From positions 4,464,001-4,528,000 of the forward strand of contig NZ_CP129884.1 in assembly GCF_030490285.1 (NCBI RefSeq): a stretch of 64,000 nt of DNA, read 5' to 3'. Position 1 is the stretch's first letter. Every line of letters starts with the position of its first letter. The stretch is from Methylomonas montana (lineage in GTDB: Bacteria; Pseudomonadota; Gammaproteobacteria; Methylococcales; Methylomonadaceae). The position numbers were made by a program, and so were the translations under genes. A model generated the notes under the pieces. The model made no database searches. It worked only from the letters and a program-made list of their open reading frames with translations, and was not told where the DNA came from. Shown one piece after another: positions 7,262 through 59,297 of this stretch.

Positions 7262-8404
7262 ATGGACTTTAAAGCCCTACTGGCCCTGATGGTTGAAAAG
7301 AAAGCATCCGACCTGTTCATTACCGCCGGCCGGCCGCCTTCCTTTAAAATCGATGGCAGAATCGTCGAGGTCTCGAAAACGCTACTGACCGAGGAGCAGA
7401 CCTTGGCTCTGGTGAATAGCATCATGTCGCAACGGCAACGCGACGAATTTGAGAATACCAAGGAATGTCAGTTTGCCTTGAGCGTCCATGAGCTGGGCCG
7501 GTTCCGGGTCAGCGCGTTCACCCAGCGCGATGCGGCCGGCATGGTGCTGAGACGCATCGAAACCACTATTCCCACGTCTGAAGATCTGCACTTGCCGCCG
7601 GTATTGAAAGAACTGATCATGCAAAAACGCGGCCTAGTCATCTTTGTCGGTGCGACCGGCACCGGTAAATCGACCTCGCTGGCTGCGTTGATCCGCCACC
7701 GCAACGAAAACAGTAGCGGCCATATCATCTCCATCGAAGACCCGATCGAGTTCATGCATCCGCACAAGGGTTGCATCATCACCCAGCGTGAAGTCGGACT
7801 GGACACCGAGTCGTTCGAAGTCGCGCTGAAAAACACCCTGCGGCAAGCGCCGGACGTGATTCTGATCGGTGAGGTTAGAAGCCGGGAAACCATGCAGCAC
7901 GCCATTACCTTTGCCGAAACCGGCCATCTGTGCGTTTGCACCTTGCATGCCAATAACGCCAACCAGGCCTTGGACAGGATTCTGCATTTCTTCCCGGACG
8001 AGATGCACGGCCAGTTGTTCATGGATTTATCGTTAAACCTGCGCGGCATCGTCGCGCAACAGCTGATCAAGCGCGCCGACGGCAAGGGCCGCTATCCCGC
8101 CATCGAAATTCTGCTGAATACTCCCCTGGTAGGGGATTTGATCCGCAAGGGCGAAGTGCATAAGCTGAAAGAGTTGATGAAAAACTCCCGTGAGCACGGC
8201 ATGCAGACTTTCGATCAGGCGCTTTACGATCTGTATGTGGCCGGCAAAATCAGTTACGATGATGCGCTACAATCTGCCGATTCTCGTAACGAAGTCCGGT
8301 TGATGATCAAACTTGGCGCCGAGAACGCTCAGTTCGACAACTCCGAAATGAAATTGACCGACGATCCTGACGAGGGCACCAATCTGTATAACACGCCGAG
8401 GTAA
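7262..8404 (+). CDS. pilU: PilT-like retraction ATPase PilU
   Basis: 380 residues. Same ATPase layout as the preceding PilT, with Walker A GATGTGKST near residue 130, Asp box (DPIEFMHPHKG) and His box (TFAETGHLCVCTLHA). It has the longer acidic C-terminal tail of PilU and lacks the AIRNLIRE motif (it reads LVGDLIRKGE at that place). PilU is the PilT-dependent accessory retraction motor in Pseudomonas and relatives. It starts at ATG 7262 behind a near-perfect ribosome site (AAGGAGGC). The pilT-pilU order is the usual one. Confidence 0.95.
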   Translation: MDFKALLALMVEKKASDLFITAGRPPSFKIDGRIVEVSKTLLTEEQTLALVNSIMSQRQRDEFENTKECQFALSVHELGRFRVSAFTQRDAAGMVLRRIETTIPTSEDLHLPPVLKELIMQKRGLVIFVGATGTGKSTSLAALIRHRNENSSGHIISIEDPIEFMHPHKGCIITQREVGLDTESFEVALKNTLRQAPDVILIGEVRSRETMQHAITFAETGHLCVCTLHANNANQALDRILHFFPDEMHGQLFMDLSLNLRGIVAQQLIKRADGKGRYPAIEILLNTPLVGDLIRKGEVHKLKELMKNSREHGMQTFDQALYDLYVAGKISYDDALQSADSRNEVRLMIKLGAENAQFDNSEMKLTDDPDEGTNLYNTPR

Positions 8405-8412
8405 CCGTTCGC

Positions 8413-9582
8413 TTGCAAAAACCTAGTTCCAGACACTTCGTCAAACTGTCCCTATTCATCGCCCTGCTGAGCGGTTGCGCCACGCAACCGCCGGCCGAGC
8501 GCAACCCCAGCAATTGGGCCAAAAATCCCACGCAACAAACCGCTCCCAGCCAGTCGCGCACCGCTAATCCCGACCTGCGGCCGTTCGCCAGCGTCGGCGG
8601 CTATCATGCTTCGATCGTGAGCGGCGATTACGCCGGCTATCCGGCTCTGAATCAGTTCATCGAGCAGATGGTACAGAAGCACGGCTTCAGCCGCGAGTAT
8701 CTGCAAGGCTTGTTTTCCGTTGCTAAACGCAAGCAGTGGACGCTGGATTATCTGGCCAAATCCGACCAGGGCCTAAAAGGCAAGCCCAGCAAAGGCGGTT
8801 GGACCCGCTACCGCGCGCAGTTTCTGGACGACCGCCATATCGACGCCGGGGTGAGTTTCTGGCGAAAATATCAGCCCTCTCTGCAACGGGCCAGCCGGCA
8901 ATACGGGGTGCCGGCCGAATACATTCTAGGCATCATGGCCGTAGAAACCACCTTCGGCAGCTTCGTTGGCAACCATAAAATCATCGATGCGCTGACCACT
9001 TTGGGATTCGATTACCAGCGGCGTGGCGAGTATTTCCGCAGTGAACTGGAAAACTTTCTGGTGATGAGCCGCACTGAAGGTCTCGATCCCGGCAAGCCGG
9101 TCGGCTCATTTGCGGGCGCGATGGGTTTGGGCCAGTTCATGCCCAGCAGCTTTTTACAATGGGCGGTGGATTTTAACGGCGACGGCCGCCGCGATCTGTG
9201 GAATCCGGAAGATGCCATCGGCAGCGTGGCGAATTATTTTGCGCAACACGGCTGGCAACAAGGCCAGCCGATCGTCTCGGCAACGCGCGGCAGTTATAGC
9301 GGCATAGACAGCCTGGAACCCGGCGCAGACCATGCTTACCCTCTCAGCACCCTAACCCAAGCCGGTATCGAACCTGCCGTTCCATGCAATTGCGATTATC
9401 CGCTACGCTTGTTATTGCTCAGGCATCAAAGCAATGACGAATACTTGCTTGGGCATCCCAATTTTTATGTGATCACCCGCTATAACCAGAGCACGCATTA
9501 TGCGATGGCAGTACATGAATTGGCGTTGGCGATTAAGAGTGGGTATCAGAGGGTGGCTGTTAATCGGTCTGATGCTGGGTAA
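8413..9582 (+). CDS. mltB: Membrane-bound lytic murein transglycosylase B
   Basis: 389 residues from TTG 8413, the only start that keeps the signal peptide; no earlier ATG exists. A lipoprotein signal ends in a lipobox (LLSGC, Cys 22). The SLT-2 fold follows, with catalytic Glu near 178 in IMAVETTFGSF and the family segment MGLGQFMPSSF, then a putative calcium-binding loop (NGDGRRDLWNP). The enzyme cleaves peptidoglycan glycan strands at the outer membrane inner face. It starts eight bases after the pilU stop, so it may be co-transcribed. mltB/rlpA pairs occur in this group; here rlpA lies 41 kb away. Confidence 0.92.
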   Translation: MQKPSSRHFVKLSLFIALLSGCATQPPAERNPSNWAKNPTQQTAPSQSRTANPDLRPFASVGGYHASIVSGDYAGYPALNQFIEQMVQKHGFSREYLQGLFSVAKRKQWTLDYLAKSDQGLKGKPSKGGWTRYRAQFLDDRHIDAGVSFWRKYQPSLQRASRQYGVPAEYILGIMAVETTFGSFVGNHKIIDALTTLGFDYQRRGEYFRSELENFLVMSRTEGLDPGKPVGSFAGAMGLGQFMPSSFLQWAVDFNGDGRRDLWNPEDAIGSVANYFAQHGWQQGQPIVSATRGSYSGIDSLEPGADHAYPLSTLTQAGIEPAVPCNCDYPLRLLLLRHQSNDEYLLGHPNFYVITRYNQSTHYAMAVHELALAIKSGYQRVAVNRSDAG

Positions 9583-46290: not shown

Positions 46291-46821
46291 TCAATCATCT
46301 CCAACCACCGTCAAATCCAAATCCCCAGCCCAATTTTCCGGATAAACTCCCTTTTCAACATACCGATGAAAACTGGAATAAGGCCAGTCTATAACTCGGG
46401 AGACCAAGCCATGTTTAACCGGATTAACATGCACATAATCCACATGACGTTCAAAGTCTGTTTCATCCCTTATCGAATGCTCCCAAAAATGTCGTTGCCA
46501 TATTCCGCGTTCATTCGCAGCTTTTCGTGCATCCGACCGATACTCTGTTTTGGGTAACACCCGCGAAAATCCGCTTTTAATCAACCGCCAGCGTTTGCTG
46601 AAATCCGCATCGCCCGGCGGCAATGTCCAAACCGCATGCAAGTGTTCCGGCAGCACCACCCAAGCGTCGATCTTGAACGGATACCGTTCCCTTACCGCGC
46701 GTACGGTTTCGCGTAATAAATTGATTTCTCGAATCAGCAAATCGTTATTTTTACGTTCCAGCAAATTCACCGTAAAAAACCATGTGCCACCGGGAATAAA
46801 TGCGCGTCGGTAATTTGGCAT
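46291..46821 (-). CDS. REP-associated tyrosine transposase (RAYT), intact
   Basis: 176 residues. Starts with PNYRRAFIPGGTWFFTVNLLE, the typical RAYT N-terminus. The HUH metal-binding motif is LPEHLHAVWTLP near residue 60 and the catalytic Tyr helix is VDYVHVNPVKHG near 130, ending with WPYSSFHRYV. RAYTs are domesticated IS200/IS605-like enzymes thought to propagate REP sequences. REP hairpins sit 15 bases from one end and 39 bases from the other. No frameshift or stop is seen, so it may be active. Confidence 0.92.
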   Translation of the reverse strand: MPNYRRAFIPGGTWFFTVNLLERKNNDLLIREINLLRETVRAVRERYPFKIDAWVVLPEHLHAVWTLPPGDADFSKRWRLIKSGFSRVLPKTEYRSDARKAANERGIWQRHFWEHSIRDETDFERHVDYVHVNPVKHGLVSRVIDWPYSSFHRYVEKGVYPENWAGDLDLTVVGDD

Positions 46822-56776: not shown

Positions 56777-57103
56777 GGCGGGTTCCAAGGATTAAGAAAC
56801 AGATCGAAATTTACCACGAAGAGCCAACCGGAAGAGTATTTTTGGGATCGTCTGGCATTTCCTGGAGCAAGGTGACATTAGCGCTGAATACCGTTTCGAG
56901 TTGGCCTTGACGATTTGGGCGAACAGGTTCTCGCCCAGTGTCGCCAACGGTTACCCAATCAAACGGTGCTAGGGCTGTTTGCAAGGCTCGGCAATGGCTG
57001 CCCATTCTTTTTTAAACAACCTAGCATTCATGCTTTTTTCGTATTTCGTCGTACGGAATCTCTTCGATCGAAGTGGGCGAAAGGGAGAATTGAAGGCTTT
57101 TAT

Positions 57104-57130
57104 CGGCGGATGACGCTTCGCTTATCCGCC
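57104..57130 (+). repeat. REP-like hairpin (GGCGGAT/ATCCGCC)
   Basis: Stem GGCGGAT / ATCCGCC around ACGCTTCGCT. The loop core ACGCTTCGCT is the same as that of REP hairpins 2 and 3 near the RAYT gene, so it is a member of the same family with a different stem. It lies nine bases after the DUF1287 stop codon on the opposite reading direction and may end that transcript. Confidence 0.65.
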
Positions 57131-57138
57131 CGACGGCC

Positions 57139-57765
57139 CTAACGCTTATTGCGATATTTCTTGGGCTGGTAGCGATAATGCCCCGTTATTTTGTAAGCAA
57201 AAATCATGTCCTCCAGTTTTGGACCTGCACCAATATTGTGAACGATAAGCGGACGTCCTGTGCCGAGGGCGGTTTTATCCGTGACAATCCCGATATGAGG
57301 CAAATTTCCCGGCAACATCCAGGTAACGATATCCCCTGGAGCATAATCTTGGCCTTGATCGGTCACGGGTAATGCTTTTCCGTGCCGAGAGAAAAATACC
57401 TGTAGATTCGGAACCCGACGATGATCAATGTTTCTATCAGTCGAGCTTAGCCCCCAAAGCTTCTTTGAAGGATACCCGCGAAAGTTTTTGACCATATCCT
57501 CGTGGACTAAAACCTGAAGATCTACGCCTAGTTTACGATATGACCGAATAACGACATCGCTACAAACCCCAACGTTCGCGGGCACATCACCGTTTGGATA
57601 GGCTATTGAAAAATAAGACCCATCATAGCGAACGTTATGATGGGTCTGATCGATTGCTGCTAAAACGATGTCCTGTTCAAAACTTTGGCTTAGTGCGTTT
57701 TCAGAAAAAACAATCGAAGCAATTAATAGAAATTTACCCAAAGTGACTCCAATTAATTTAATCAA
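57139..57765 (-). CDS. DUF1287 (YijF-like) putative peptidase
   Basis: 208 residues. Signal peptide (about 1-26) and the DUF1287 blocks: GVCSDVVIRSYRKLG with the candidate nucleophilic Cys near residue 67, VHEDMVKNFRGYP, NIDHRRVPNLQVFF, and GDIVTW...LPHIGIVTD with the candidate His near 157. The fold is thought to be of NlpC/P60 type, so a cysteine peptidase or amidase role is possible. Its ATG overlaps the stop of the Tai4-like gene by four bases (57762-57765), so it belongs to the same transcript as the T6SS effector and immunity genes. Export would place it in the periplasm with Tai4. Confidence 0.82.
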   Translation of the reverse strand: MIKLIGVTLGKFLLIASIVFSENALSQSFEQDIVLAAIDQTHHNVRYDGSYFSIAYPNGDVPANVGVCSDVVIRSYRKLGVDLQVLVHEDMVKNFRGYPSKKLWGLSSTDRNIDHRRVPNLQVFFSRHGKALPVTDQGQDYAPGDIVTWMLPGNLPHIGIVTDKTALGTGRPLIVHNIGAGPKLEDMIFAYKITGHYRYQPKKYRNKR

Positions 57766-58190
57766 CGGCGGAGACTGCTTTTCAGTCGAATGGCAAATTC
57801 CTTTGAGTTGATAAATTCAACACAGCTCTGCAATCGCATTGGCATGCCATTTTGAGTGATGCCTGGCGCGGGGGCAGATTTGGCGAGCAGTGCCAATGCT
57901 GGATAAGCCTCGGCCGACAAGCTGCCGTTTTCCACTAACCCTGCGGCCCAGGCATCTGCTTCGGTCGCAATCGGCGTTCCTGTATATCTATCCATAATGC
58001 AGGCCGCAAGCACATAATTGCGAGCTTGTGCAATTTCACTGGAAGTCGGTTTTTCGGCGGAAATTGCCGTAGTTGATAAAAACACCATTGCTGCCGTTTG
58101 AAATAATATGAAGCGAACAATCGATTTACGGCATTTCGCAACCAAGAGAAACACTTGGGACGTGACAGTGCGATGTTTTAAAGCGCCCAT
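57762..58190 (-). CDS. T6SS amidase immunity protein, Tai4-like
   Basis: 142 residues with an unusually long basic N-region before a hydrophobic signal (IVRFILFQTAAMVFLSTTAISA). The mature part is about 97 residues, mostly helical, with two Cys (AACIMDRY and LQSCVEF), as in Tai4 periplasmic immunity proteins. ATG 58190 follows AGGATGACGCT. It lies four bases after the Tae4-like effector gene. The identification rests mainly on position, size, export and helical character and partly on resemblance to the Tai4 pattern. Confidence 0.72.
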   Translation of the reverse strand: MGALKHRTVTSQVFLLVAKCRKSIVRFILFQTAAMVFLSTTAISAEKPTSSEIAQARNYVLAACIMDRYTGTPIATEADAWAAGLVENGSLSAEAYPALALLAKSAPAPGITQNGMPMRLQSCVEFINSKEFAIRLKSSLRR

Positions 58191-58194
58191 AGCG

Positions 58195-58704
58195 TCATCC
58201 TATCGTGGTGGCTTCAATCTGTGGCGTTGACGGGTTATCCCTTAAGTTTCGATAATCATCATGGGGTTCTCTGAAGGCGCTACCATCCCAAAGCGCGACG
58301 TGACCGCTGGCATCACTCCAGCCAGTAACATCGAATGACACGATACCATTTTGAGCAGCAAATGCCTTGTCGAAATCCTTTGAGACTTTGATCGGGGTTA
58401 CACCTAATGCCGAGGCTAAGTAAGTTTTCATATCGCGTACGCGGAATATGTAAGGCATTCCGTCCGCACCAATCATGGTCTCAATTTTAAGGGACTTAGT
58501 CAGTTTTGCCGAAATCGGCATATTACCGTAATTGAGGGCTCGGGACATACGGGCGGCACATGTATTGCCGTTTACCCCAAAACCAGGCACGTCAATGTTC
58601 TTAACCAGACTGCCACCGATAAATGTATGCAGATCACGCAGGGTTGGGTAACTCGTGTGGTCAGGGAATGCTTGCCACATCATTTTGAAACTAGGTTTGG
58701 CCAT
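58195..58704 (-). CDS. T6SS amidase effector, Tae4-like
   Basis: 169 residues, no signal peptide, as expected for a T6SS-injected effector. Catalytic Cys 49 in GNTCAARMSRALNYG and His 135 in DASGHVALWDG are the hallmark pair of the Tae4 D,L-endopeptidase/amidase family, and the first 45 residues have the family start (PSFKMMWQAFPDH, then two turns before GFGVNG). It would cut peptidoglycan stem peptides in a rival cell. Start ATG 58704 is preceded by TTAAGGAAAATAAATT. No vgrG, hcp or PAAR gene is in the window, so it is an orphan island. Confidence 0.86.
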   Translation of the reverse strand: MAKPSFKMMWQAFPDHTSYPTLRDLHTFIGGSLVKNIDVPGFGVNGNTCAARMSRALNYGNMPISAKLTKSLKIETMIGADGMPYIFRVRDMKTYLASALGVTPIKVSKDFDKAFAAQNGIVSFDVTGWSDASGHVALWDGSAFREPHDDYRNLRDNPSTPQIEATTIG

Positions 58705-58920
58705 AATTTATTTTCCTTAATCCACCAACCCCCGTTGCGGACATACTCTGACCTAGAGCCGGAATGCCCAGGCCACAAGCCCCGAAATACCGAACCACCA
58801 ATTTGGCCGACCACTGCATCGGTATGCCAGGCATCTACTCCCCGTAACGTTGCGATTGCTTGTTTTGTTGTACCCCGGTAACCTCGGCGCGCAAAAAAAC
58901 CTATTTTCCGGCGTTGCCTG

Positions 58921-58933: not shown

Positions 58934-59280
58934 AGAGTTGGCCGAACAGTCGCCGTTTTATGCAAATAAAAGGGAGGAAAGTCCGGGCTCCATAGGGCAG
59001 GGTGCCAGGTAATGCCTGGGAGGCGTGAGCCTACGGAAAGTGCCGCAGAAAATATACCGCCTGCTTCGTATCGAAGCCGGTAAGGGTGAAATGGTGCGGT
59101 AAGAGCGCACCGCGCAACTGGTAACAGGTGTGGCAGGGTAAACCCCACCCGGAGCAAGATCAAATAGAGGCACATACGCGTGGCCCGCGCGGTGCCTGGG
59201 TAGATTGCTTGAGCGATTGGGTGACTAATCGCCTAGATGAATGGCTGTTCTCGACAGAACCCGGCTTACAGGCCAACTCT
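58934..59280 (+). ncRNA. rnpB: RNase P catalytic RNA, class A
   Basis: About 347 bases. Helix P1 is formed by AGAGTTGGCC at the start and GGCCAACTCT at the end. Universally conserved blocks are seen in order: GAGGAAAGTCCGGGCTCC (P4/J3-4 side), CAGGGTGCCAGGTAA, GGTGAAATGGTGCGGTAAGA, GAGCGCACCGCGC, ACCCGGAGCAAGATCAAATA, and AGACAGAACCC-like ACAGAACCCGGCTTA near the 3' end with the P4 partner. Nearly identical to the E. coli layout (class A). Followed by a T-rich tract (59281-59296). Confidence 0.97.
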
Positions 59281-59297
59281 TTCTCTTCTTTTTTTTG
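59281..59297 (+). terminator. Terminator of rnpB (T-tract)
   Basis: TTCTCTTCTTTTTTTT directly after the closing strand of P1. The P1 helix and 3' region serve as the hairpin. It ends 19 bases before the mtnB ATG, so mtnB transcription may come partly from readthrough. Confidence 0.65.

Follow-up and report, generated by a model that had tools for sequence, protein, structure and literature searches.

Cassettes of the type VI secretion system (T6SS) are usually read as a toxin plus a binding antidote. The described systems closest to the locus analysed here are the Tae4-Tai4 pairs of Salmonella and Enterobacter and the Ssp-Rap pairs of Serratia (PMC3695027, PMC3852654); Tae4 enzymes cleave the gamma-D-Glu to mDAP bond (PMC3852654) and Tai4 blocks the Tae4 active site (PMC3695027). 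In a 64,000-nucleotide stretch of the genome of the methane-consuming bacterium Methylomonas montana (positions 4,464,001 to 4,528,000 of contig NZ_CP129884.1, hereafter the window), a pair of this kind is followed by a third gene: a Tae4-family amidase gene, a Tai4-type gene and a gene of the DUF1287/YijF family form a tandem series, in this order, on the minus strand. The DUF1287 family is placed among the NlpC/P60-like amidases, with a C-H-H triad and without a role, in the relevant passage of PMC10318531; it also appears in a prophage gene table (PMC1931599) and is named in PMC12828279, and the passages of PMC10318531 and PMC1931599 that concern it give no tie to the T6SS. Wall enzymes are known in T6SS biology from TagX of Acinetobacter, an L,D-endopeptidase of T6SS clusters that is essential to the apparatus (PMC5061870), and peptidoglycan editing is reported as an immunity-independent T6SS defence in Acinetobacter (Le et al. 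2020, cited in PMC7690452).

The window locus resembles the known Tae4-Tai4 pairs in sequence, in gene order, in the exported type of its immunity protein and in the Cys-His pair of its effector. It differs from them in its additional NlpC/P60-type gene and in a Tae4 whose C-terminus is truncated in the assembly. This Tae4 has a single cysteine, and hence not the Cys pair on which the toxicity of Ssp2 depends (PMC5792426); it is also set apart from the known pairs by Glu146 and Asp149, which are invariant within its own subgroup. The third gene is like the DUF1287/YijF family described in PMC10318531 in matching PF06940 over its full length and in having the C-H-H triad, but it follows an effector-immunity pair, whereas that description assigns the family no role. 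Like TagX, its product would be a wall hydrolase tied to the T6SS; unlike TagX, it is of NlpC/P60 type and moves with an effector pair. Its possible likeness to Acinetobacter peptidoglycan editing, as described by the citing paper, is that a cell's own wall is altered against T6SS attack. The original prediction, made from the window sequence, took this three-gene linkage as not known to have been described, and we likewise found no earlier description in the literature searched (titles and abstract openings, with most subscription papers outside its scope).

Results

Our best reading of the locus, which we put forward tentatively, is that of a horizontally moving T6SS cargo cassette in which DUF1287 would serve as an accessory enzyme on the owner's wall. 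The same three genes occur in the genome of a relative, G433, at a different site and with other neighbours; DNA similarity to the window spans from the Tae4 start through the DUF1287 end, with identities of 93% for Tae4, 77% for Tai4 and 86% for DUF1287. The dS values between the two cassettes (0.503, 0.591 and 0.529, respectively) are far below the 1.70 and 2.52 obtained for two host genes that the genomes share (a third was saturated), and from this difference we infer that the three genes moved together as one unit, recently relative to the split of their hosts. The corresponding dN/dS values, computed with Tae4 trimmed to the 169 codons common to both genomes and with Tai4 and DUF1287 on their aligned codons, are 0.07, 0.20 and 0.17; by this comparison, purifying selection acts on each cassette gene.

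The linkage is found again at a T6SS locus in G203, a genome from another family of the same class, with both a different Tae4 and a different gene in the immunity position. Here Tae4 (L173 7092-7523), a middle open reading frame (ORF, 7502-7927) and DUF1287 (7994-8605) lie on one strand. The middle ORF overlaps the Tae4 end and encodes a lipoprotein-type protein of 141 residues with no Pfam match and no sequence match to Tai4. Its structure model is all-beta; the description of Tai4 in PMC3695027 gives helices a to e. An opposite-strand kinase gene at the edge of a T6SS cluster ends 57 bases past DUF1287, and beyond it are encoded an FHA protein with a T6SS C-terminal domain, TssJ, TssK and TssL, with TagF and Hcp further along. 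Given that both genes are in the genome, the chance of finding DUF1287 on the same strand at most 2 kb downstream is about 0.0007 in G203 and about 0.0003 in G433. Because DUF1287 is located behind two unrelated immunity-position genes, its job seems not to depend on the binding-recognition of one toxin, which would fit maintenance or editing of the wall, or insertion of the T6SS.

A relative of the G203 middle gene, 36% identical, follows a Tae4 gene in the window genome at C1:3118617, without DUF1287. The unnamed lipoprotein-type family to which these genes belong (L173 7502-7927 and L175 10959-11429) stands in two genomes behind a second type of Tae4; the G203 member has eight database matches, itself included. 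We regard this family, with its all-beta model, as a candidate new Tae4 immunity family. The G203 T6SS cluster (L174 2736-12558) has two TssC matches. It also carries a pair of near-identical Hcp ORFs, located around genes for an Amidase_2 protein, a second Tae4-like protein and an M23 peptidase; small ORFs of lipoprotein or membrane type come after the Amidase_2, Tae4-like and M23 genes.

The individual gene assignments are as follows. In a profile search, the window Tae4 scored 77.5 bits (1.2e-21) against PF14113, whose curated cut-off is 27, and it matched the 4hfk/4hfl, 4hff, 4j30/4j32 and 4jur chains at 2.4e-21 to 8.5e-19; PMC5792426 identifies 4HFL and 4J32 as Tae4 structures. All 13 aligned Tae4 rows have Cys49 and His135, in agreement with the predicted Tae4 amidase with a Cys/His pair. 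Glu146 and Asp149 are both invariant in the same rows, and either is a candidate third acidic residue. Compared with the near-identical P0121 (175 aa), the window protein is missing its last six residues, that is, the conserved MTLW-type C-terminus present in P0121, G433 and G515; a complete C-terminal strand was set as a Tae4 criterion from conservation in this analysis. The window copy may be damaged, decaying or mis-sequenced, with intact copies in close relatives, and the missing end would make it less likely that this copy works, without affecting its family assignment. A Tae4 relative in G128 (L020, L224), about 49% identical, is split by an in-frame stop, while the weakly Tai4-like ORF next to it is open.

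The second ORF begins 4 bases past the Tae4 stop. It has no Pfam match; it matches Rap2a 3zib at 6.9e-10, and its matches to the partner chains 4hff_B (0.0047) and 4j30_B (0.0054) are weak. Cys64 and Cys123 fall in the part of the protein that aligns with solved Rap2a/Tai4, the N-terminus is export-type as judged by eye, and a further relative, 61% identical, is found in G515. The assignment of an immunity candidate beside Tae4 thus holds.

The third ORF matches PF06940 with 235 bits (3.6e-70), covering profile positions 3-163 of 163. It had been proposed to be translationally coupled to Tai4 through a 4-base (TTGA) overlap, which needs a start at TTG 57765. An alternative TTG at 57741, eight codons downstream, has GGAG five bases upstream, and the database representatives P0001 and P0002 start at the equivalent position. 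In G433, a 15-base gap separates Tai4 from an ATG start and the overlap position has no start codon; in G203 the gap ahead of DUF1287 is 66 bases. On these grounds coupling by overlap is unlikely, and TTG 57741 appears to be the more likely start. Numbered from there, Cys60, His149 and His168 are invariant in an alignment of 69 DUF1287 sequences (the structure alignment of our choosing). The structure model (pLDDT 93.9) has a papain-like, NlpC/P60-like fold with the C-H-H triad intact, as expected of the peptidase-type fold originally suggested, and its fold match is MepS-like; residues 2-16 are modelled as a helix ahead of the domain, giving an export-like N-terminus. According to the model, DUF1287 is an NlpC/P60-like cysteine hydrolase with a C-H-H triad, and would cleave peptidoglycan.

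Table 1. Features of the cassette and its surroundings, in window coordinates.
Feature	Position	Strand	Basis and remarks
Tae4-family amidase effector ORF	58195..58704	minus	169 aa, Cys49 and His135; PF14113, PDB chains, alignment with 12 relatives
Tai4-type immunity protein	57762..58190	minus	142 aa; PDB 3zib/4hff_B/4j30_B, relatives in G433 and G515
DUF1287 gene	57139..57741 (longer ORF from 57765)	minus	200 aa; PF06940, start evidence, model, fold matches
REP-like palindrome directly 3' of DUF1287	57105..57130	none	Single copy within the window
Cassette-carrying insertion block	56781..58900	none	Missing in the relatives G374 and G398, in both of which rnpB adjoins the fumarase gene
rnpB (RNase P RNA gene)	58934..59284	plus	RF00010, 359.5 bits; right-hand neighbour of the insertion

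The surroundings of the cassette are listed in Table 1. The fumarase gene was seen at 2 of 30 rnpB loci (G374 and G398), within the DNA examined around each, and the RNA fold of the palindrome stretch was not more stable than shuffles. The window genome has three Tae4 loci, the cassette and two elsewhere, and one copy of DUF1287 was found in it. The Tae4-Tai4 pair is orphan in position, as first noted, within a genome that encodes a T6SS sheath protein (TssC/VipB) at C1:367947, about 480 kb from the cassette measured round the circular chromosome, and a divergent second one at 1257756. One of the other Tae4 genes (L176 9292-9705, equal to C1:671291-671704) and the G433 cassette (L227 11460-13072) are flanked by the same two neighbour genes, which are 80% and 61% identical between the two genomes; this interval may be a common insertion spot for effector genes. 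A short ORF adjoining the G433 cassette (L227 14220-14537) has a 65% identical relative at window positions 46294-46584, and is presumably of the REP-associated transposase type.

Discussion

In the accessory-enzyme reading, Tae4 would be a leaderless DL-endopeptidase that is injected by the genome's own T6SS and cuts the peptide stems of a rival's wall, while Tai4 would be an exported inhibitor that shields the owner. DUF1287 would be an exported NlpC/P60-type cysteine hydrolase that remains in the owner's periplasm and targets its own peptidoglycan. By trimming or remodelling wall peptides, it would make stray Tae4 cuts less harmful or allow them to be repaired, complementing the inhibition by Tai4.

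How often the two genes go together was examined by survey, as had been proposed. Tae4 is present in 13 of 369 class genomes, 20 of 237 family genomes and 13 of 398 phylum genomes, and DUF1287 in 23 and 25 of the same class and family sets. Both class genomes that hold the two genes have them adjacent. The T6SS sheath gene, found in 107 of the 237 family genomes, is more frequent in those with DUF1287 (18/25) than in those without (89/212; Fisher p 0.005, uncorrected for kinship). Several observations weigh against an accessory role. Only two of the six family genomes holding both genes have them adjacent, DUF1287 stands beside 3 of 62 Tae4 places (within 1.5 kb), and, of 122 distinct DUF1287 sequences, 3 have a Tae4 nearby (within flanks of 1.5 or 6 kb), in the same three genomes. 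Co-occurrence at class level is not significant (p 0.19), the neighbours of DUF1287 elsewhere, read by eye, recur only between related genomes, and 7 of the 25 DUF1287-bearing family genomes have no T6SS sheath match. The co-transfer inference has a small base of two host genes, the window Tae4 is truncated and this copy may be decaying, and a sister cassette in G515 (Tae4 84%, Tai4 61%; genome 79% complete) is without DUF1287. Lastly, in a DUF1287 tree built from 122 distinct sequences no shorter than 130 aa (identical copies and shorter sequences left out), a constrained test on 46 of the 122 rows, with a bootstrap that had not settled, did not reject a clade of the Tae4-linked sequences plus the lone G382 sequence (p-AU 0.27); a clade restricted to the Tae4-linked sequences was rejected (p-AU 0.008). 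The linkage would have arisen either twice, or once with later loss, and the effector pairs differ either way. The original prediction is therefore upheld in part: the linkage does recur in two other genomes and the Tae4 call is supported by profile search, yet DUF1287 is rare at Tae4 loci and its overlap with Tai4 is not conserved.

Nearly as likely as an accessory enzyme is a passenger, an independent exported wall enzyme, unrelated to Tae4, that drifts between genomes and has landed behind effector-immunity pairs at insertion-prone spots. The lack of Tae4 near DUF1287 outside the three linked genomes fits this explanation, as do the 59 Tae4 places and the G515 cassette where DUF1287 was not seen. 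Its distribution in the genus is also sparse, at 4 of 37 genomes (with a partial match in G386), and the G382 copy is a lone one for which tblastn detected no remnant of either Tae4 or Tai4. Mere drift accounts less well for the same position and strand behind two unrelated effector-immunity pairs, given the low chance values in G203 and G433, or for co-transfer under purifying selection.

Two more specific functions seem unlikely. DUF1287 might be an enzymatic second immunity, a mobile peptidoglycan editor turning the owner's wall into a poor Tae4 substrate; if so, its protection would be editing-based and independent of toxin binding, and it could accompany Tae4 types that are unrelated and paired with different immunity proteins. 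Slightly more doubtful still is an assembly enzyme that makes room in the owner's peptidoglycan for the membrane complex of the T6SS, as has been proposed for TagX. The G203 copy, so close to the T6SS-edge kinase gene and near TssJ, TssK and TssL, would suit such a function, as would the MepS-like fold of the model, and TagX is itself a peptidoglycan hydrolase required for T6SS function (PMC5061870). The window and G433 copies, however, travel with an effector pair at a distance from the sheath gene, and 89 of the 107 sheath-bearing family genomes have no DUF1287 match. Moreover, when 17 G203-cluster queries were run against 132 DUF1287 loci (with flanks of 1.5 or 6 kb, and some of the places included twice), the sole T6SS-cluster match was the G203 kinase itself; with one locus in 132, DUF1287 is not regularly encoded in T6SS clusters. 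Of the roles first considered for the third gene (second immunity factor, drafted housekeeping amidase or auxiliary effector), the last, in which DUF1287 would itself be a toxin delivered into rivals, appears the least likely and is very improbable, because the modelled N-terminus is of export type and no immunity-like gene was seen after DUF1287 at the three linked loci, and many genomes have lone copies with none of the searched T6SS genes in the flanking DNA examined.

If DUF1287 is indeed an accessory enzyme, a wall enzyme that travels in a T6SS cassette, and recurs after an antidote-position gene of an unrelated type, would suggest that the owner is protected by an altered target rather than by a blocked toxin. 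The widespread DUF1287/YijF family, for which we found no assigned role in the literature searched, would thereby gain its first functional context.
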